Source: Thermoplasmata archaeon (GTDB taxonomy: Archaea; Thermoplasmatota; Thermoplasmata; GCA-020350865). Taken from it: a DNA stretch of 5,456 bases. The stretch lies in assembly GCA_020351895.1 (NCBI GenBank), contig CP070672.1, positions 1,378,919 to 1,384,374 on the forward strand, given 5' to 3'. This document shows, one piece after another, positions 1 through 5,456 of the stretch; positions within the stretch are counted from its first letter, which is position 1, and every line of letters starts with the position of its first letter. The notes beneath the pieces are model-generated. The model was not told the DNA's origin and ran no database searches. It was given only the letters and a program-made list of their open reading frames with translations. The position numbers and the translations under genes were made by a program.

Positions 1-166
1 GATACTACCCAAGGATCTGGGCGCCTTTGGGCTCTCAACTCCCTCAATATTCGCGACCATCACCGAGATACCCGGCAGTATACGATTCACTTTCGTTAAT
101 GGAATGGTGCTTGTGGTGATTCTGCTTGCAGCCTCAATTGCCATCTTTCGCATGAAGGAACTGTGA
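1..166 (+). CDS. C-terminal fragment of a membrane protein, ABC-2 type permease-like
   Basis: An open frame enters from the left edge (first whole codon at 2) and ends at TGA 164-166, leaving 54 residues. The visible part is a short loop segment followed by one strongly hydrophobic helix (about residues 34-49, NGMVLVVILLAASIAIF) and a short basic tail RMKEL. A last helix followed directly by a few residues such as F-R-x-K-E-L at the stop is typical of ABC-2 type transporter permeases, which make the membrane channel of an ABC exporter. That assignment is inference from the tail alone; other polytopic membrane proteins could end this way. Base composition is more GC-rich than the plus-strand genes further right. 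The ATPase partner, if any, would lie to the left of the window. Confidence 0.55.
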   Translation, partial: ILPKDLGAFGLSTPSIFATITEIPGSIRFTFVNGMVLVVILLAASIAIFRMKEL

Positions 167-300
167 GATTGTCTAAAGGGGTGCTGCCTCATCTTGTGCT
201 TGACATGTCCATTATTCGTAAGGAGATCCTAGAGCCTATCCTCGAAGATGGACATGTCCTTTGGTGTAAACCCCTTCAGCAATTTGTCGAGTCTACTTTA
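167..300. repeat. Spacer with paired GACATGTC palindromes in an inverted repeat
   Basis: Two exact 11-base inverted arms, GACATGTCCAT (202-212) and ATGGACATGTC (248-258), are separated by 35 bases. Each arm contains the perfect 8-base palindrome GACATGTC, so the sites are also direct repeats. A weaker outer pair, AAGGGGT (176-182) and ACCCCTT (270-276), encloses them, though the spacing on the two sides differs (19 and 11 bases). The arrangement could be a two-site operator for a dimeric regulator, a folded RNA 3' end of the upstream gene, or a mobile-element remnant. No coding sequence is supported here. Confidence 0.5.
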
Positions 301-302
301 AG

Positions 303-362
303 GGGTGTATCGGTGGGGTGAAACCTGAGATGAGGGGAACTGCACAGGTGGGGGTTGAGGGT
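303..362. repeat. R0: degenerate right half of the GC-rich interspersed repeat
   Basis: The stretch GAGGGGAACTGC..AGGTGGGGGTTGAG (about 332-358) matches the right-hand part of repeat copies R1 and R3 (GGGGGAAYTGCGGAGGTGGGGG). Upstream a GGGTGT at about 303 keeps nearly the same spacing as in R3, suggesting the right half is present but decayed. The left half with the two hairpins is not recognisable. It lies upstream of the promoter of the gene at 439, the same relative position as R1 and R2. Confidence 0.55.
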
Positions 363-400
363 GTAGAAATACAGGCGGTGGAAAAAAATAAGCTGTTGTG

Positions 401-416
401 CGAAAAAATATTAATA
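401..416 (+). promoter_or_regulatory. Archaeal BRE/TATA promoter for the gene at 439
   Basis: A purine-rich CGAAAAA (401-407) is followed by an AT-only TATA-like box ATATTAATATT (about 408-418). Its centre is about 27 bases before the ATG at 439, so transcription should start at or next to the start codon. No Shine-Dalgarno match precedes the ATG, so the transcript is probably leaderless. Confidence 0.55.
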
Positions 417-438
417 TTACATTTCAAATCTATTACTC

Positions 439-1467
439 ATGAAAAAGATATATCTCTATTTCACAATGATTCTAGTACTTTTACTTATTGTAAGTCATAA
501 TGTCATGGGCCATGTACCCCGAGGAGCCGAAGAAAACGACAGCTTAGAGCATGCCATGCATATTAATGAGCCCAAGAAGTCATGGGCAATTTACCACGAG
601 CTTGAAAACAAGGAACAGGCTAGATATTATGAGCTTCATCTTGAAAAAGGGGATAGATTTTACGCGTCTCTTCTCACCCCAGAAGATGGGGACTTTTCTC
701 CTGGATTGGTAATTATGGGACCTGGATTGGATTCGATTGATTCGGCTCCTTCAAATGTGGAGGTTCCTGAGGATGTGGATGTTCTTGTACTGGAGGGGGA
801 GAAAGAAGAAGAAGCTGAGTACGAACCATTCACACCTGCAAGCAACTATTTTTTAACATCTTATGACGAGATTGTGAACGAAAGCGGGGATTATTACATT
901 GTGGTTTTTGAGAATTTCACCGGGGGTAAATATATTCTTGCGGTAGGTTACCAGGAGAGCTTCACGATAATTGAATGGCTTAAAGTGCCTATTGATCAGA
1001 TCAATATCTATATCTGGACTGGGCATAGCCCTTTGTTGATTGCGGCTCCTTTTTTGATATGGATTGTCGCAGGTATATGGTTTTTATTAAGGCGGCTGAA
1101 GCTTAACACAATAAACGTCTGGCTTACAGCCTTAGGAGGGTTGATTTACCTTGGTTCTGGGACCCTCATAGCAATTGAAATGACAATAGCCCTGACCCGC
1201 ACCCCAGCAACCGCCTCCGTAATCGTGACGTTGATATTTATTCTGATTCCGGCTTTACTAGGTATGGTTATCTTTATGAAGATAAAGAAAAATGAAAATG
1301 TTTTGGATAGGCAAAATAGAATTGTATTTGCGATTTATGGTTTTTTGGGTTTGATTTTTTGGTGCGGGGTAATAATAGGCCCCATACTCGTTCTATTATC
1401 CAGTGTTCTGCCTATTTTGTATGTTCCTAAAATGAAACCAGAAGTTAAAAAAAAGCAAGTGGAATGA
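439..1467 (+). CDS. Signal-peptide protein with beta-rich ectodomain and four C-terminal TM helices
   Basis: A 342-residue protein. Residues 1-24 form a signal peptide (MKK start, hydrophobic run ILVLLLIV, possible cleavage after NVMG). Residues 25-175 look like an extracytoplasmic beta-sandwich resembling bacterial pre-peptidase C-terminal (PPC-like) domains: an ARYYELHLEKGDRFYASL strand pair near 61-78, an acidic linker at 119-128 (EGEKEEEAEY), then SGDYYIVVFENFTGGKYILAV near 149-169. Four membrane helices follow at about 197-217, 226-247, 259-281 and 295-325. The tail is lysine-rich (KMKPEVKKKQVE). Sequons occur at N147 and N159. The layout suggests a cell-surface sensor or adhesive domain on a polytopic anchor, but no enzyme motif is visible and the function is unknown. 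The start is set by the TATA box at about 412 and the signal peptide. The stop is 4 bases from the stop of the convergent glycosylase gene. Confidence 0.85.
   Translation: MKKIYLYFTMILVLLLIVSHNVMGHVPRGAEENDSLEHAMHINEPKKSWAIYHELENKEQARYYELHLEKGDRFYASLLTPEDGDFSPGLVIMGPGLDSIDSAPSNVEVPEDVDVLVLEGEKEEEAEYEPFTPASNYFLTSYDEIVNESGDYYIVVFENFTGGKYILAVGYQESFTIIEWLKVPIDQINIYIWTGHSPLLIAAPFLIWIVAGIWFLLRRLKLNTINVWLTALGGLIYLGSGTLIAIEMTIALTRTPATASVIVTLIFILIPALLGMVIFMKIKKNENVLDRQNRIVFAIYGFLGLIFWCGVIIGPILVLLSSVLPILYVPKMKPEVKKKQVE
1447..1454 (-). terminator. T8 tract, probable terminator of the glycosylase gene
   Basis: An A8 run on the plus strand, which encodes lysines at the end of the membrane protein, is a T8 tract on the minus strand 18-25 bases past the glycosylase stop. 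Archaeal RNA polymerase terminates at such tracts without a hairpin. The terminator therefore lies inside the opposing gene. Confidence 0.5.
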
Positions 1468-1471
1468 AGAT

Positions 1472-1801
1472 TCAAACCTTGCAACCGCATTTTTTTTCTT
1501 TTAGTATTCTGATCTGTTCCATTATTGAATCCACAAATTGATTTTGCAGCTCTTTACCGGACGCAAGCCGCAGATCGAGTGGGCTATTATGTTCAAAACC
1601 TCTTTTTACCATCTCCAATGCTATGTTCTCATGCCTATTGAATAAGGCCTTGAGCTTCCCCTTCCATCTTTTTGTTTCAGGGTGATTTGAATATCCCTTT
1701 TTATCCTGGGTGATTATATTCCATATTACATGGATTTCATTGTGTTCTCCAAGTAGGTGATTTCGACATAGCTTTTCTGGAAGAATGTCCCATACTCTCA
1801 T
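1472..1801 (-). CDS. Pyrimidine dimer DNA glycosylase (Pyr_excise / T4 endonuclease V-like)
   Basis: A 109-residue protein from ATG 1801-1799. It matches the short MR(L/V)W-type pyrimidine dimer DNA glycosylase family: MRVWDILPEKLCRNHLLGEH at 1-20, KKGYSNHPETKRWKGKL at 34-50, NRHENIALEMVKRGF at 55-69, then HNSPLD. These enzymes cut the glycosidic bond of UV-induced cyclobutane dimers and nick the strand by beta-elimination. Aligned to T4 endonuclease V (NHLLGEHNE against QHLMAEYRE), E22 corresponds to catalytic Glu23 and H15 to His16. Residue 2 is Arg instead of the nucleophilic Thr2 of T4. The frame stays open to a Met at 1981, but those 60 extra residues come from repeat R1 and spacer; family members start at this MRxW, and AAAGGT lies just upstream. 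The C-terminus is KEKKCGCKV. The gene is monocistronic and convergent with its left neighbour. Confidence 0.9.
   Translation of the reverse strand: MRVWDILPEKLCRNHLLGEHNEIHVIWNIITQDKKGYSNHPETKRWKGKLKALFNRHENIALEMVKRGFEHNSPLDLRLASGKELQNQFVDSIMEQIRILKEKKCGCKV
1490..1502 (+). terminator. T-rich tract, probable terminator of the membrane-protein gene
   Basis: T8-C-T4 on the plus strand starts 23 bases after the stop of the gene at 439-1467. It is the complement of the lysine codons near the end of the glycosylase (KEKK). It mirrors the T8 tract on the other strand at 1447-1454, so each convergent gene supplies the other's terminator. Confidence 0.55.
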
Positions 1802-1829
1802 ATGATAACCTTTATCGTTTTCATATTGA

Positions 1830-1842
1830 TAAATTTTAAGGA
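1830..1842 (-). promoter_or_regulatory. Possible TATA box of the glycosylase gene
   Basis: Read on the minus strand, TCCTTAAAATTTA covers these positions. Its centre is about 35 bases before the ATG at 1801, which would give a leader of roughly 10 bases, enough for the weak AAAGGT site. A second AT-rich candidate, CATATTATATTC, lies 10-15 bases further upstream. This supports transcription starting downstream of repeat R1, and so the short form of the protein. Confidence 0.35.
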
Positions 1843-1902
1843 AAGAATATAATATGATGTCCCTGAGGTGCGGATAAGATTGAATGTCCAGTTCCCAGTT
1901 TC

Positions 1903-2034
1903 GTGTTTTTCGCTCTCCACCCAAACCTTGAACCATCAAGCCTTTGCTTAAGCCAAAGAAAGGTGGGTGTGGTTTTTGCACTCAGAGAGGGGATGGGGGA
2001 ATTGCGGAGGTGGGGGTTGAGTGGGGGAGGTTGA
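1903..2034. repeat. R1: full copy of the GC-rich interspersed repeat
   Basis: This copy shares near-identical blocks with R2 (2793-2955) and R3 (4354-4499). In order: TGTTTTTCGCTCTCCACCC; CATCAAGCCTTTGCTTAAGC; CAAAG; GGGTGTGGTTTTTGCAC; GATGGGGGAATTGCGGAGG; TGGGGG. Hairpin 1 is CTTTG..CAAAG (1942-1958) and hairpin 2 is GTG..CAC (within 1966-1982). Outer arms are CCACC (1917-1921) with GGTGG (2009-2013) and CCATC (1933-1937) with GATGG (1992-1996). The left flank (about 1878-1902) also resembles the left flank of R3 (about 4318-4353). Read on the minus strand the repeat is open and encodes MQKPHPPFFGLSKGLM.., which explains the false N-terminal extension of the glycosylase. It ends about 30 bases before the TATA box of the Fic-like gene. 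Confidence 0.85.
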
Positions 2035-2063
2035 AAAGAAAATATGCTCTTTGCATCAAAAGG

Positions 2064-2075
2064 TTTTTATTTAAG
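2064..2075 (+). promoter_or_regulatory. Archaeal TATA box for the Fic/Doc-like gene
   Basis: TTTTTATTTAAG is centred about 24 bases before the ATG at 2094, which predicts a start of transcription at or near the ATG. A GTGATGG at 2083-2089 resembles a Shine-Dalgarno site, but it would only be transcribed if initiation occurs further upstream. The same TTTATTTAAG box appears before the cold-shock gene on the other strand. Confidence 0.55.
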
Positions 2076-2093
2076 TATTAAAGTGATGGTTAT

Positions 2094-2666
2094 ATGGAAA
2101 AAACCAGAAAAAATTGTGAGACATTCAAAAACTTCTATTACCATCTCTTTGAAAGAATTAATTTTGAATATACAGAAGAAACTGGAGGAAAGATCAAACC
2201 TTACAAGGATTATGAACCCAATTTGTTGATAATCTTCTGTGGGCAATATCAAGATGAAGAAGATATTTTTGATCAATTGACAAAATTATTAAGTAGTTTA
2301 ATAATTTTACAAGCCCTACCTAATGCAAATCATCGGACTGCTTTTCGCTTTGTAGATCTTTATTTGGGCTTTTCTTGCGGGGAAAAAATGAAAACATATA
2401 ACGAGGAGAAAGGACTCTATGACTTATTTTATACTAATTCTAAACGTATAGTGGATTTTGATATAAATCATAAGTATCTTTTTGATGCAAGCTATCATGA
2501 TGTCCATCATTCCAGAGGAATAAAAGATCATCGAAAATATACCAAAGAATTAGTAGAAAAAATTGTTACAGCTCAATCTGGCATGACTGAAGCGGTTCCT
2601 TTCCAACGTTTCATCACATCCTTGTACCAGGGAGGCTCCTCCTCGAACCAAACGGGCTCCTCTTGA
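2094..2666 (+). CDS. Fic/Doc-like protein with altered catalytic motif
   Basis: A 190-residue protein. Helical residues 54-72 lead into QALPNANHRTAF (73-84), which aligns with the Fic/Doc signature HxFx(D/N)(G/A)N(G/K)RTA. Asn77, Asn79 and Arg81 of the phosphate-binding part are kept. The catalytic His is Gln73, the Phe is Leu75, and the Gly/Lys before Arg is His80. Fic enzymes transfer AMP and Doc transfers phosphate to target hydroxyls, both through that His, so this copy is predicted inactive or changed in chemistry. A His-rich patch, YHDVHHSRGIKDHRK, lies at 134-148. The last 20 residues are low-complexity (GGSSSNQTGSS) and their DNA (about 2605-2665) is much more GC-rich than the rest, suggesting an acquired tail. 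No Phd-type antitoxin gene adjoins it. The family call rests on one motif. Repeat copies flank the gene on both sides. Confidence 0.65.
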   Translation: MEKTRKNCETFKNFYYHLFERINFEYTEETGGKIKPYKDYEPNLLIIFCGQYQDEEDIFDQLTKLLSSLIILQALPNANHRTAFRFVDLYLGFSCGEKMKTYNEEKGLYDLFYTNSKRIVDFDINHKYLFDASYHDVHHSRGIKDHRKYTKELVEKIVTAQSGMTEAVPFQRFITSLYQGGSSSNQTGSS

Positions 2667-2711
2667 GTCATCATGTATTGTTATTTAGGAGGTGCTATTT
2701 AAATATTACTT

Positions 2712-2757
2712 GAATTTTTACAAAAACACCTTTACACATCCTTTTTCCTTCTAATTT
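2712..2757 (+). terminator. T-rich terminator region after the Fic/Doc-like gene
   Basis: T5 runs at 2715-2719 and 2742-2746 and further pyrimidine tracts (CTTTTTCCTTCTAATTTCC) lie 50-90 bases past the stop. They are consistent with hairpin-free archaeal termination. A GGAGGTG at about 2688-2694 has no usable start codon after it. The rest of the gene-free stretch 2667-3006 is repeat R2 and the promoter of the next gene. Confidence 0.4.
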
Positions 2758-2792
2758 CCGGTATATGGACCCGCATTTCGTTACAATCCTCT

Positions 2793-2955
2793 TGTTTTAC
2801 GCTCTCCACCCAAATCTTTCCCCATCAAGCCTTTGCTTAAGCCAAAGACAGGCGGGTGTGGTTTTTGCACCTATAAAGGGGATTGGGGGAACCCGAAAGG
2901 TTGGTTACGAGAGTGGTTGACGTGTGGCTGAGATTGAATAGAGGGGGTAGGGGTA
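2793..2955. repeat. R2: full copy of the GC-rich interspersed repeat
   Basis: The left part (2793-2871) is close to identical to R3: TGTTTTACGCTCTCCACC, CTTTCCCCATCAAGCC, hairpin 1 CTTTGCTTAAGCCAAAG (2831-2847), ACAGGC, hairpin 2 GGTGTGGTTTTTGCACC (2855-2871). The right part has diverged (GATTGGGGGAACCCG, then an irregular G-rich run to GGGGGTAGGGG at about 2943-2953). The outer pairing is kept by CTCTC (2802-2806) with GAGAG (about 2909-2913). It abuts the TATA box of the gene at 3007 with only about 10 bases between. Confidence 0.85.
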
Positions 2956-2965
2956 TATCTAAAAA

Positions 2966-3003
2966 GTTATATAAACATTAAATGCGATAGTGAAACGGGT
3001 GAT
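2966..3003 (+). promoter_or_regulatory. TATA box and ribosome binding site of the coiled-coil surface protein
   Basis: GTTATATAAA (2966-2975) is a good archaeal TATA box. About 25 bases downstream of it lies GGGTGAT (2997-3003), complementary to the archaeal 16S rRNA 3' end and 3 bases before a GTG codon at 3007. Transcript start and ribosome site thus nearly coincide, giving a very short leader. This site decides in favour of the GTG start. Confidence 0.65.
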
Positions 3004-3006
3004 ATT

Positions 3007-4278
3007 GTGAAAATAAGAGGAAGGCTGTTAATAGCCCTATCAATAATAGGAATTTTAAGTTGTGTAGCATTACCAAGTGTGAATGCAGAGACTTTTGATA
3101 TTGGTGAAAAAATCTCGGAGTCAGATTCCGATTCCGGTAACAATCGATTGTATTACTTCGATTCTGGATGTATGATAAGAACAAACCAAGACTATATAGA
3201 TTATATACCATTAATATTGGATGGAAATGAAAGTACAGGTATAGATCATGACTTTGGTCCGGGTCATGATAAATTGACATTTTATTTAGTGTTTCAATAT
3301 CCATGTAATGTTAGCAATATTACTTTTAAACCAGTATTCCATGGAAATGCTTCAAAATACGTGGGTCAAAACTTTTTAATTTACATTGATTCGGTGGAAA
3401 TGTGGCTTAATTTACCATATGCTGAAAATAAAACCATTCATATAAACGGAACAATAAATACAATTAGATTATGGTTAGATAGTAATGGAACAAATCATTT
3501 TTACTTTAATGATGTGATTATAAATTATACTCCAACTCCTTCAAACTTTAGTGAAGTAATTCAGGCTATTGATGATCTCAAGATTACCGTTAATTCCCTT
3601 CAAAACCAGATAAATAATCTTAACTGGCAAATTGATGTACTTAATAACAGGACAAGTGAAATGAATAACACAATTAATGAACTAAACCAGACTCAGCAGC
3701 AGATTTTAGAGAATATCACCAATATATGGTCGAACTATAACCAATTAAATGGCTCTGTCATGAATTTAATCAAAGAAATCGAGGACCTCAACATTACCAC
3801 AGATGAGAACATAACTCTGATCAAAAATAATTTGACTTTAATCGGAACTGATATTTATAACTTATACCAGTCAATAGATAACTTAACTATTAATGAAACC
3901 CAACTTAATGAAATCCAATATTTGATTGATGATATTACTCAGGATATACACAACCTGAGCGATAACATCACCGTGATTAAAAGCACTATCCCCTCTGAAT
4001 ATGATGATACCGTCCTCACGAATCGTGTTTTCCAGCTCGAATCTGATAATATGGCCCTTAATACCGAAATAGAGAACCTGACAACAGAGATAGAGAACCT
4101 GAATGAAGAAATAGAAAAACTTAAAGATGATAAAGGCGAGCCAGATAATTTTGTTGCATTTGGAGCATTTATATTGGGGATCCTTGGTATTCTCATAGCC
4201 ATAGTAGCTATAATTATTGCTTCTAGAAAATTGGGTGAAAAAACGCCGCCTTCAGATAAGGAAGAGTCTGAAGAGTAA
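3007..4278 (+). CDS. Secreted N-glycosylation-rich coiled-coil protein with C-terminal membrane anchor
   Basis: A 423-residue protein with a GTG start. Residues 1-27 form a signal peptide (MKIRGR, hydrophobic core, cleavage likely after SVNA). Residues 28-175 form a probable beta-rich globular head with one cysteine pair (C55, C100). About 185-375 is a long coiled coil with heptad spacing and many Asn in core-like positions (LQNQINNLNWQI), possibly broken at TIPSEYDD (327-334). Residues 383-406 form one membrane helix, followed by a short charged tail ending DKEESEE. I count about 22 N-x-S/T sequons spread over head and stalk, so the mature protein is predicted to be a glycosylated stalk standing on the cell surface. 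The architecture recalls archaeal surface or S-layer-associated fibre proteins, but I do not recognise a specific family. Candidate roles are cell-wall spacer, adhesin or phage receptor (inference). The gene is flanked by repeats R2 and R3 and has its own promoter. Confidence 0.85.
   Translation: MKIRGRLLIALSIIGILSCVALPSVNAETFDIGEKISESDSDSGNNRLYYFDSGCMIRTNQDYIDYIPLILDGNESTGIDHDFGPGHDKLTFYLVFQYPCNVSNITFKPVFHGNASKYVGQNFLIYIDSVEMWLNLPYAENKTIHINGTINTIRLWLDSNGTNHFYFNDVIINYTPTPSNFSEVIQAIDDLKITVNSLQNQINNLNWQIDVLNNRTSEMNNTINELNQTQQQILENITNIWSNYNQLNGSVMNLIKEIEDLNITTDENITLIKNNLTLIGTDIYNLYQSIDNLTINETQLNEIQYLIDDITQDIHNLSDNITVIKSTIPSEYDDTVLTNRVFQLESDNMALNTEIENLTTEIENLNEEIEKLKDDKGEPDNFVAFGAFILGILGILIAIVAIIIASRKLGEKTPPSDKEESEE
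4066..4128 (+). repeat. 21-base tandem repeat encoding heptads
   Basis: The DNA repeats GARATAGAGAACCTGAnnnnA about 2.7 times, encoding EIENLTT, EIENLNE and EIEKLKD. The unit is exactly one coiled-coil heptad. The first two units share nearly identical bases and not only similar residues, so the stalk has been lengthened recently by tandem duplication. Confidence 0.7.
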
Positions 4279-4353
4279 ATCCATTCTGAGGAGAATAAAA
4301 ATAAGACTAATGAAGAAGATTCTTGATGTTCAGCTTCCAGTCCCCATCCCCAT

Positions 4354-4499
4354 GTTCAACACTCCCCACCCAAACCTTTCCCCATCAAACCTTTGCTTTT
4401 GCCAAAGACAGGCGGGTGTGGTTTTTGCACCTCGAAAGGGATGGGGGAACTGCGGAGGTGGGGGCTGGGGTGAGATGGGATGGGAAGGAGGGGTTGGGA
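4354..4499. repeat. R3: full copy of the GC-rich interspersed repeat, with G-quadruplex motif
   Basis: The outer arms pair as CCCCACC (4364-4370) with GGTGGGG (4457-4463) and CCCCATC (4380-4386) with GATGGGG (4440-4446). Inside them are hairpin 1 CTTTGCTTTTGCCAAAG (4391-4407) and hairpin 2 GGTGTGGTTTTTGCACC (4415-4431). The right part has G-runs at 4460-4464, 4467-4470, 4477-4479 and 4482-4484 with loops of 2, 6 and 2 bases, a canonical quadruplex pattern, plus two further runs to 4498. The segment to the left (about 4318-4353) also resembles the left flank of R1. It follows the surface-protein gene. All open frames across it on either strand are repeat translation and not genes. Confidence 0.85.
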
Positions 4500-4546
4500 A
4501 TTGAAAATCAGAAAAATTATATCTAGACATATGAATTGTAAATTCA

Positions 4547-4606
4547 ATGAATATGATGATAGCCGAAGTTTGGGTGTGTGCAAACAAAAAAATTAGGGAG
4601 AAATAA
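4547..4606 (+). CDS. Possible 19-residue small ORF downstream of R3
   Basis: ATG 4547 opens a short frame, MNMMIAEVWVCANKKIREK, ending at TAA 4604-4606. An AATTATATCTAG TATA-like box (about 4514-4525) is centred about 27 bases before the ATG, the spacing seen before the leaderless genes of this window. R3 lies just upstream, as R0-R2 do for the other plus-strand genes. The small palindrome TGAATT-GTA-AATTCA (4532-4546) lies between box and start. There is no homology evidence; it may be the stub of a lost gene or chance. Confidence 0.2.
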   Translation: MNMMIAEVWVCANKKIREK

Positions 4607-4887: not shown

Positions 4888-4906
4888 AAAAAAATATATA
4901 AAAAAA
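4888..4906 (-). terminator. Double T7 terminator of the cold-shock gene
   Basis: Minus-strand T7 runs at 4906-4900 and 4894-4888, separated by ATATA, begin 27 bases past the cold-shock stop codon. They separate this gene from the zinc-binding protein gene downstream. The same AT-rich segment could also serve as promoter DNA for that gene. Confidence 0.5.
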
Positions 4907-4933
4907 GAGATATTTTATTGAAACCAACTCAGA

Positions 4934-5125
4934 TTATTGTTTCTTTACGTTGGTAGCTTGCGGGCCCTTTGGGCTTTGTTCGATGTCGAATTCTACCGAA
5001 TCACCCTCGTTCAGGATCGTTCCTTCAGAAAGGGCATTACGATGTACGAAAACGTCCTTACCGTCCTCGACTTCAATAAAACCAAAAGACTTACGTTCGT
5101 TATACCACTTTACAGTTCCTTCCAT
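4934..5125 (-). CDS. Cold-shock domain protein (CspA family)
   Basis: A 63-residue, full-length single cold-shock domain: [20 protein letters not shown], then [14 protein letters not shown], ending in [16 protein letters not shown]1 is KSFGFIEV (12-19) and RNP2 is VFVH (25-28). The nucleic-acid-contacting aromatics W7, F14, F16, F26 and H28 are present. The usual Gly of RNP1 (KGFGFI) is Ser13 and the FSAI after RNP2 is RNAL. Such proteins bind single-stranded RNA and DNA as chaperones that melt structure, in cold adaptation or general growth. They are patchily distributed in archaea, which suggests bacterial ancestry. The codon choice is more GC-rich than the surrounding spacers, fitting high expression. 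AGGAGGTGA lies 6 bases before the ATG. Confidence 0.97.
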
Positions 5126-5131
5126 TTGATT

Positions 5132-5171
5132 TCACCTCCTCAGAGTCTATGTTTCTGATTCTTAAATAAAG
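5132..5171 (-). promoter_or_regulatory. Promoter and strong ribosome binding site of the cold-shock gene
   Basis: On the minus strand CTTTATTTAAG (5171-5161) is a TATA box resembling that of the Fic-like gene. About 25 bases later comes AGGAGGTGA (5140-5132), a perfect Shine-Dalgarno sequence. The leader would be only about 15-20 bases, too short for the long structured 5' leader that controls bacterial cspA. Confidence 0.6.
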
Positions 5172-5201
5172 AGTTACCAATCAAAAAGTCATGTAACAAA
5201 G

Positions 5202-5217
5202 TTTGGAGGATTCCAAA
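5202..5217. other. Small hairpin/palindrome upstream of the cold-shock promoter
   Basis: TTTGGA-GGAT-TCCAAA forms a 6-base inverted repeat with a 4-base loop, 31 bases upstream of the cold-shock TATA box on the minus strand. It could be a regulator site. The rest of 5172-5302 is AT-rich with no gene seen. Confidence 0.3.
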
Positions 5218-5302
5218 AAGTGTTAATCTTTCTAATTTTCTTCTTTATTACCTTCTCCTACAGGTTTACTACTATAACTACTTTTCTGTTTTACTTTTTA
5301 AG

Positions 5303-5357: not shown

Positions 5358-5456
5358 ATGAGAAAACTTAACCAGAGGAAGGTAAGGTGGATTTTTCGGG
5401 AGATGGATAAGGGTAAGATGTCTGTGTACTCGATAGCAAAACTCCAGGGGATAACC
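5358..5456 (+). CDS. N-terminus of a probable transposase/integrase with helix-turn-helix
   Basis: ATG 5358 opens a frame that runs off the right edge, giving 33 residues: MRKLNQRKVRWIFREMDKGK then MSVYSIAKLQGIT. The sequence is basic and reads as a helix followed by a helix-turn-helix (SVYSIAKLQGIT as the turn and recognition helix entry). That is the layout of the N-terminal DNA-binding domain of IS481-like DDE transposases and related archaeal integrases. The catalytic DDE part is beyond the window, so the family is inference; a plain HTH regulator is the alternative. No clear ribosome site precedes the ATG; an AT-rich CTATATCTATA lies directly upstream. Confidence 0.55.
   Translation, partial: MRKLNQRKVRWIFREMDKGKMSVYSIAKLQGIT

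Follow-up and report, generated by a model that had tools for sequence, protein, structure and literature searches.

The window analysed here, a 5456-nt stretch of the genome of a Thermoplasmata archaeon, contains four copies (R0 to R3) of a G-rich repeat, and the same family recurs in a related metagenome-assembled genome (MAG), bin33. The family is real and oriented, and its copies lie between units of accessory genes in an archaeal array. We lean towards the reading that R0–R3 mark the boundaries in a polar, cassette-like array of accessory genes, in which recombination adds, removes and rearranges units. The repeats themselves are probably recombination sites, a judgement that we hold with the balance close to even. 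We favour this reading because the family is present in both species, with a single orientation per cluster and in two clusters only; because copies lie close behind plus-strand stop codons, part toxin–antitoxin and other accessory genes, and are mosaic; and because one gene unit (2055–2724) is conserved up to the repeats whereas its neighbours differ in bin33. The original prediction was partly supported: a multi-copy family with a fixed orientation and non-random positions was borne out, whereas a mobile element inserting upstream of promoters, or a promoter module, was not.

An oriented repeat family in two genomes

R1 (1887–2038), R2 (2776–2927) and R3 (4336–4487), all on the plus strand, constitute a direct-repeat family of 152 nt each, R2 and R3 being 70% identical to R1. 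R0 (300–363, plus strand) has a left part like that of the bin33 copies and a 27-nt G-rich core that is 85% identical to R1 and R3 and 63% identical to R2. The cores of R0–R3 have a GC content of 0.53–0.63 in a window of 37.6% GC (0.376), with G accounting for 40–55% of the plus strand, and the starts of the copies are 0.9–1.7 kb apart. An Rfam scan, made of the window only, gave no match at the gathering score.

Relatives were found with a profile of the open reading frame (ORF) at 439–1467, which recovered 22 loci, including CP070739.1 (bin396, G001) and CP070751.1. The latter is the Thermoplasmata archaeon MAG bin33 (G002); the search within the order of G001 took in three genomes, G001, G002 and G004. 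A bin33 element as query matched bin33 itself at 20 places with E≤0.0026, all on the plus strand within two clusters; a further four matches, at E=0.12–5, were elsewhere. A sequence-only model was built from 19 bin33 copies and scanned over the whole of bin33, where the scoring covered 150 of the 1431 first-look candidates. The model identified 21 copies at E≤2.8e-4, all on the plus strand, 19 of which had been model input; 13 were at 2313736–2354214 (cluster A) and 8 at 4623675–4648729 (cluster B). A weak copy at 4646814 (plus strand, E=0.059) fell within cluster B, and two weak matches lay outside the clusters (E=0.47, minus strand; E=0.66, plus strand).

When the model from bin33 alone was applied to the window without filtering, its top four matches were R2 (core 2878–2920, E=3.6e-5), R0 (E=2e-4), R1 (core 1994–2029, E=0.0097) and R3 (core 4438–4478, E=0.066), all on the plus strand, while the fifth-ranked of its 12 window matches had E=1.2. 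This bears out the family and its uniform orientation, both proposed earlier from the window sequence, and the second rank of R0 confirms it as a true, degenerate member. A profile of window copies R1–R3, run over 400 kb of bin33, gave 12 best matches that were individually weak (E=0.16–1.6), all on the plus strand and all within the arrays. At 2898–2919, R2 is identical to a bin33 copy over 22 of 22 nt, and R3 (4444–4479) is 86% identical to bin33 4623717–4623752. Window-like copies occur at bin33 4622323–4622368 and 2354317–2354373, and bin33 4623666–4623750 aligns over nearly the whole R1–R3 profile. Two right-end types, GGTTGGTTACGAGAGTGGTTG and one like GGTGGGGGTTGAGGTGAGATGG, are common to the two species; the left parts of R1–R3 are unlike the majority type of bin33.

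The bin33 record consists of contigs joined by 100-N gaps, with the arrays on stretches 2273153–2361405 and 4537709–4652959, so the relative orientation of the two array contigs is meaningless. Strand uniformity per contig was 13/13 and 8/8, which has a chance of about 2 in a million when copies are treated as independent. The second contig breaks off at 4652959, within the gene that follows the last copy. Past the gap, the sequence after 2361505 (L078:1506-20000) is GC-richer, with ORFs that look phage-like by eye, which points to possible contamination of the bin. At its end, the cluster A contig (L078:1308-1405) has 98 bases that recur identically on the cluster B contig (L079:13557-13654), there just upstream of a transposase-like ORF; an insertion sequence at which the assembly broke is the probable explanation.

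As far as the class samples go, the family appears lineage-restricted. Both a BLAST search with a bin33 copy and the combined model under strict filters found 1 genome among 400 of the class, bin33 itself. The R2 core of the window had short matches in 2 of 300 genomes (E=0.0017 and 0.0032), the surroundings of which, by eye, lacked the repeat. In three other genomes the bin33 model gave scattered weak matches only (G003, E=0.0072, 0.072 and 0.38; G001, E=0.029; G004, none). Distant blastn searches of plasmids and phages with R1 gave no match. An exact core pattern was found in 0 stretches of genome_contigs and viral_contigs, an insensitive search since the copies of bin33, which is in genome_contigs, differ from it; two further exact patterns gave 0 each in viral_contigs.

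Gene units between the repeats

One unit is present in both species. It comprises a leader with a TATA-like box, a 190-aa gene (2094–2666) and a 3' tail, occupies 2055–2724 on the plus strand, and corresponds to bin33 2346448–2347118. Identity is 37/39 in the leader, 473 of 570 aligned positions in the coding region and 54/58 in the 3' tail. The repeat to its left agrees with that of bin33 at 28 of 45 aligned positions in its right part and 24 of 40 in its left part, and beyond the 3' tail there are 19 scattered aligned columns (16 identical) with no continuous homology. In bin33 the counterpart, like the unit in the window, is flanked by repeats on both sides, with a cold-shock gene on one side and HicAB on the other. 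The cold-shock block of the window (4888–5297, minus strand; gene 4934–5125, Pfam CSD, E=5e-23) lies 2.2 kb downstream of the unit and is 86% identical to the bin33 block at 2345868–2346273. Window 3–169 is 84% identical to a bin33 site past the last strong copy of its cluster. The promoter postulated next to R1 does contain a TATA-like box, but the box is outside the repeat and is conserved with the 2094–2666 gene instead.

The 190-aa protein resembles DOC toxins weakly and below the cut-off (TIGR01550, E=0.0025), and one of its 26 listed homologs, which include the window's own, is named 'prophage maintenance system killer protein'. Its bin33 counterpart has a weak, sub-cut-off match to the AbiA HEPN domain. 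A 32-aa ORF (2573–2671, minus strand) overlaps the gene's 3' end in antisense and is preceded by a TATA-like stretch that is conserved; 29 of its 32 residues match in bin33. In the overlap, 11 of 14 differences are on third codon positions of both frames, so the frames are indistinguishable. This ORF is a possible small antitoxin.

The cargo between copies in bin33, of which 30 proteins were scanned with Pfam, includes a VapC-type PIN protein (the adjoining 73-aa protein matches no Pfam family), HicA with HicB, an MqsA/MazE-like zinc-finger protein, and a HEPN and nucleotidyltransferase pair. Further units encode MaoC, S-adenosylmethionine decarboxylase, NYN, CAAX protease and NosD-type beta-helix proteins, among others. 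Array genes are on both strands. Thirteen tRNA genes, all on the minus strand, lie between two cluster B copies (L081:736-3566).

The position of copies relative to genes was compared with random intergenic placement in the two bin33 arrays, using a hand-made list of 67 genes from which ORFs below 100 aa were omitted unless added by hand and four longer ORFs judged spurious were dropped; one doubtful ORF in the list (4630226–4630531) overlaps a copy. The next gene downstream was on the plus strand for 12 of the 21 copies, as expected by chance (random mean 11.84, P=0.56). The upstream gene was on the plus strand for 13 of 21 (random 9.47, P=0.087), while the remaining 8 were not behind a same-strand gene. 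In contrast to these, 10 of 21 copies started within 80 nt of a plus-strand stop codon (random 3.27, P=0.0002), a limit picked after the distances were seen; the ten distances were 26–74 nt. With the downstream strand at chance and 10 of 21 copies near plus-strand stops, the link is with the places where same-strand genes end and not with promoters, and a regulatory promoter module is rejected. The statement that copies precede every complete plus-strand gene holds in the window (439–1467, 2094–2666 and 3007–4278), but is no rule in bin33, where the orientation of copies is random relative to the downstream gene, whereas orientation and location as such are far from random, a mixed outcome for the refutation by random placement that had been proposed. 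The promoter link in the window is a consequence of units that happen to be on the plus strand. Seen from the other side, R2 and R3 are behind same-strand genes and R0 is behind the end of a gene that, by eye, is transporter-like.

The 439–1467 ORF (plus strand), which follows R0, encodes a 342-aa membrane-type protein with 44 homologs at E≤1e-3. The named homologs are archaeal, and those with an organism come from Methanomassiliicoccales, Thermoplasmatota and Candidatus Saliniplasma MAGs, which makes an archaeon of the Thermoplasmatota type very likely as the source. R2 is followed by a gene for a 423-aa coiled-coil protein (3007–4278, plus strand), which had only sub-cut-off coiled-coil matches among the matches listed. 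R3 had been described as preceding only a tiny ORF. What follows is probably a decayed unit, because 4504–4583 (plus strand) resembles the start of a NosD-type bin33 gene (2351805–2354084) that likewise lies behind a copy (match to bin33 2351795–2351874, 71% over 80 nt, E=4e-4); that gene is classed as NosD-type through DNA similarity to another gene that matches Pfam NosD. On the minus strand, the ORF at 1472–1981 contains a pyrimidine-dimer DNA glycosylase domain (PF03013, E=5e-25, residues 61–135). R1 overlaps its 5' end, and since the first listed codons fall within R1, the true start is probably further in. Window 182–264 adjoins R0 and is 75% identical to bin33 4646766–4646847, which adjoins a weak repeat copy; it is perhaps a shared gene remnant. 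At the right edge (5358–5456), the start of an ORF resembles, by eye, a transposase N-terminus.

Recombination, passive expansion or termination

Under the cassette-like reading, each unit would hold one gene or a few, on either strand, with G-rich repeats of constant orientation between the units. Behind a left-hand gene of its own strand, the repeat tends to start a few tens of nucleotides past the stop codon and would mark the 3' end of the unit. Gain, loss and reshuffling of units would take place via recombination at or between repeats, and the agent may be either a dedicated recombinase that has the G-rich sequence as its site or the cell's general homologous recombination, working between direct repeats.

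Consistent with recombination, the bin33 copies are mosaic. All four combinations were found in 243 of 351 site pairs, and r2 fell from 0.30 to 0.06 with distance. By region, four-combination pairs numbered 67/105 in the left part, 144/180 between the parts and 32/66 in the right part. A single crossover point inside the repeat found no support. The repeat contains one 6-pair stem, in which no both-sides changes were found, and the idea of an RNA or hairpin element was set aside.

The main rival is passive expansion, in which a satellite-like composite repeat spread by unequal crossing-over, the genes being incidental and the repeat having no role in capture. Many bin33 copies run on into a tail, then into partly palindromic 34-mers (E2) and then into a segment, E3, which in places continues into the next repeat. 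E2 was found at 14 places (up to 3 mismatches), all on the plus strand and within the same clusters (2343805–2358738 and 4620189–4643956), and was not found in the window with a 24-nt core and up to 6 mismatches. The 34-nt units, AACGCTCATATTTGGTATACCATCTGYGGGAGTT-like, are often tandem and confined to the two arrays (for example, L077:3805-3929). In two 80-kb regions of bin33 there are 239 repeated pairs with a length of 50 nt or more, and all but one (238) are direct; many repeats enter this count more than once, through pairs among themselves, and some of the repeats are coding. Two copies have only E2 and E3 between them (4636466–4636728), and NosD-type paralogs lie inside the arrays. The direct pairs, the confinement of E2 to the clusters, the two copies with only E2 and E3 between them and the paralogs fit a satellite. 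Against it, the cargo between most copies is unrelated and so is not a duplicated unit, and neither the same-strand tie to stop codons nor the shared, bounded unit is predicted. We regard the satellite as a possible but distinctly less probable account.

Several points weigh against the cassette-like reading. The copies belong to a longer composite repeat, a structure compatible with passive expansion too; the gene end that precedes the copy at 4643823 is truncated, which shows imprecise loss; and the mosaicism extends beyond a single crossover point. The cold-shock block in the window lacks flanking repeats. No recombinase was identified near the bin33 arrays, and no empty site or circle was seen. 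The comparison covers a single relative, in a record of joined contigs, and the 80-nt limit was chosen with the distances in view.

A transcription terminator or insulator, repeated behind the genes of a gene-dense island, would explain why copies lie close behind same-strand stop codons, and several copies have a T-rich stretch, such as TGGTTTTTG, ahead of them. Such an element is, however, expected genome-wide and on both strands, a distribution that was not seen in bin33, and the 8 copies that are not behind a same-strand gene also argue against it. We consider an insulating or terminating role improbable.

Comparison with known systems

Like miniature inverted-repeat transposable elements (MITEs) and repetitive extragenic palindromic (REP) elements, the repeats are short, non-coding, intergenic and present in many copies, and in the window they precede three promoters, as proposed for a mobile element inserting upstream of promoters. 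Unlike them, the copies are not scattered in both orientations: in bin33 all 21 are on the plus strand in two clusters, however the adjoining genes are oriented, without a promoter link and without overall folding excess. Strand uniformity and clustering contradict a MITE in bin33, and this explanation is very improbable.

Integrons are the textbook way of building an ordered array of small gene units. Archaeal integrons, integron arrays and clusters of attC sites lacking integrases (CALINs) have been described (Ghaly et al., 2022; PMC9668308), in the main text of which 'thermoplasm' does not occur. The criterion given there for an integron or CALIN is two or more sites spaced by less than 4 kb, and 13 of 19 spacings between neighbouring bin33 copies, and the window spacings of 0.9–1.7 kb, are below that distance. 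As in the integron arrays and CALINs of that account, units are mostly small and accessory, sites are non-coding and of one polarity, and toxin–antitoxin genes are among the cargo; as in CALINs, no integrase is nearby. Unlike integrons as described there, the sites are G-rich, lack attC boxes and overall folding excess, and are accompanied by many genes on the other strand. An R'' (RYYYAAC) and R' (GTTRRRY) pair 40–180 nt apart was found in 0 of 19 bin33 copies and at 0.3% of random positions. Single-strand folding was near the shuffled level (mean z −0.23 and −0.27 for 19 copies, without a positive control); the lowest single values among bin33 copies were −2.92 and −1.85, and those of R0–R3 ranged from −0.73 to 0.67. 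No full-length integrase was found in the joined-contig record of bin33, where the only PF00589 frames were of 98 aa and 63 aa (the latter sub-cut-off), both in stretches with N runs; one 341-aa serine-recombinase (resolvase) frame lies at 4021684, away from the arrays. An integron or CALIN with unusual attC sites, suggested by layout, polarity and toxin–antitoxin cargo, is largely refuted by the lack of attC box pairs, folding near the shuffled level and genes in both orientations, and is the least credible of the explanations. Among the listed titles and abstract openings of the literature on archaeal integrons, repeat-bounded arrays and Thermoplasmata cassettes, none described such repeats, the subscription literature being mostly outside the scope.

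The layout also recalls the pdif modules of the Xer system. These carry toxin–antitoxin genes on plasmids, as accessory units between short repeated sites. The sites here differ from them in being about 80 nt long, G-rich and all in the same orientation.

A bolder proposal, which we put forward tentatively and think unlikely, is a second gene-cassette platform unrelated to integrons, in which a putative recombinase acting on polar G-rich sites would stack units, toxin–antitoxin pairs included, in one orientation. 

The array would be a precise place to seek both the enzyme and new toxin–antitoxin genes. It also carries a warning: what appears in a short window as a repeat before one gene may really lie behind the unit that comes first. 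If the cassette-like reading is true, an integron-like layout built on G-rich, non-palindromic archaeal sites would suggest that this layout arose more than once.

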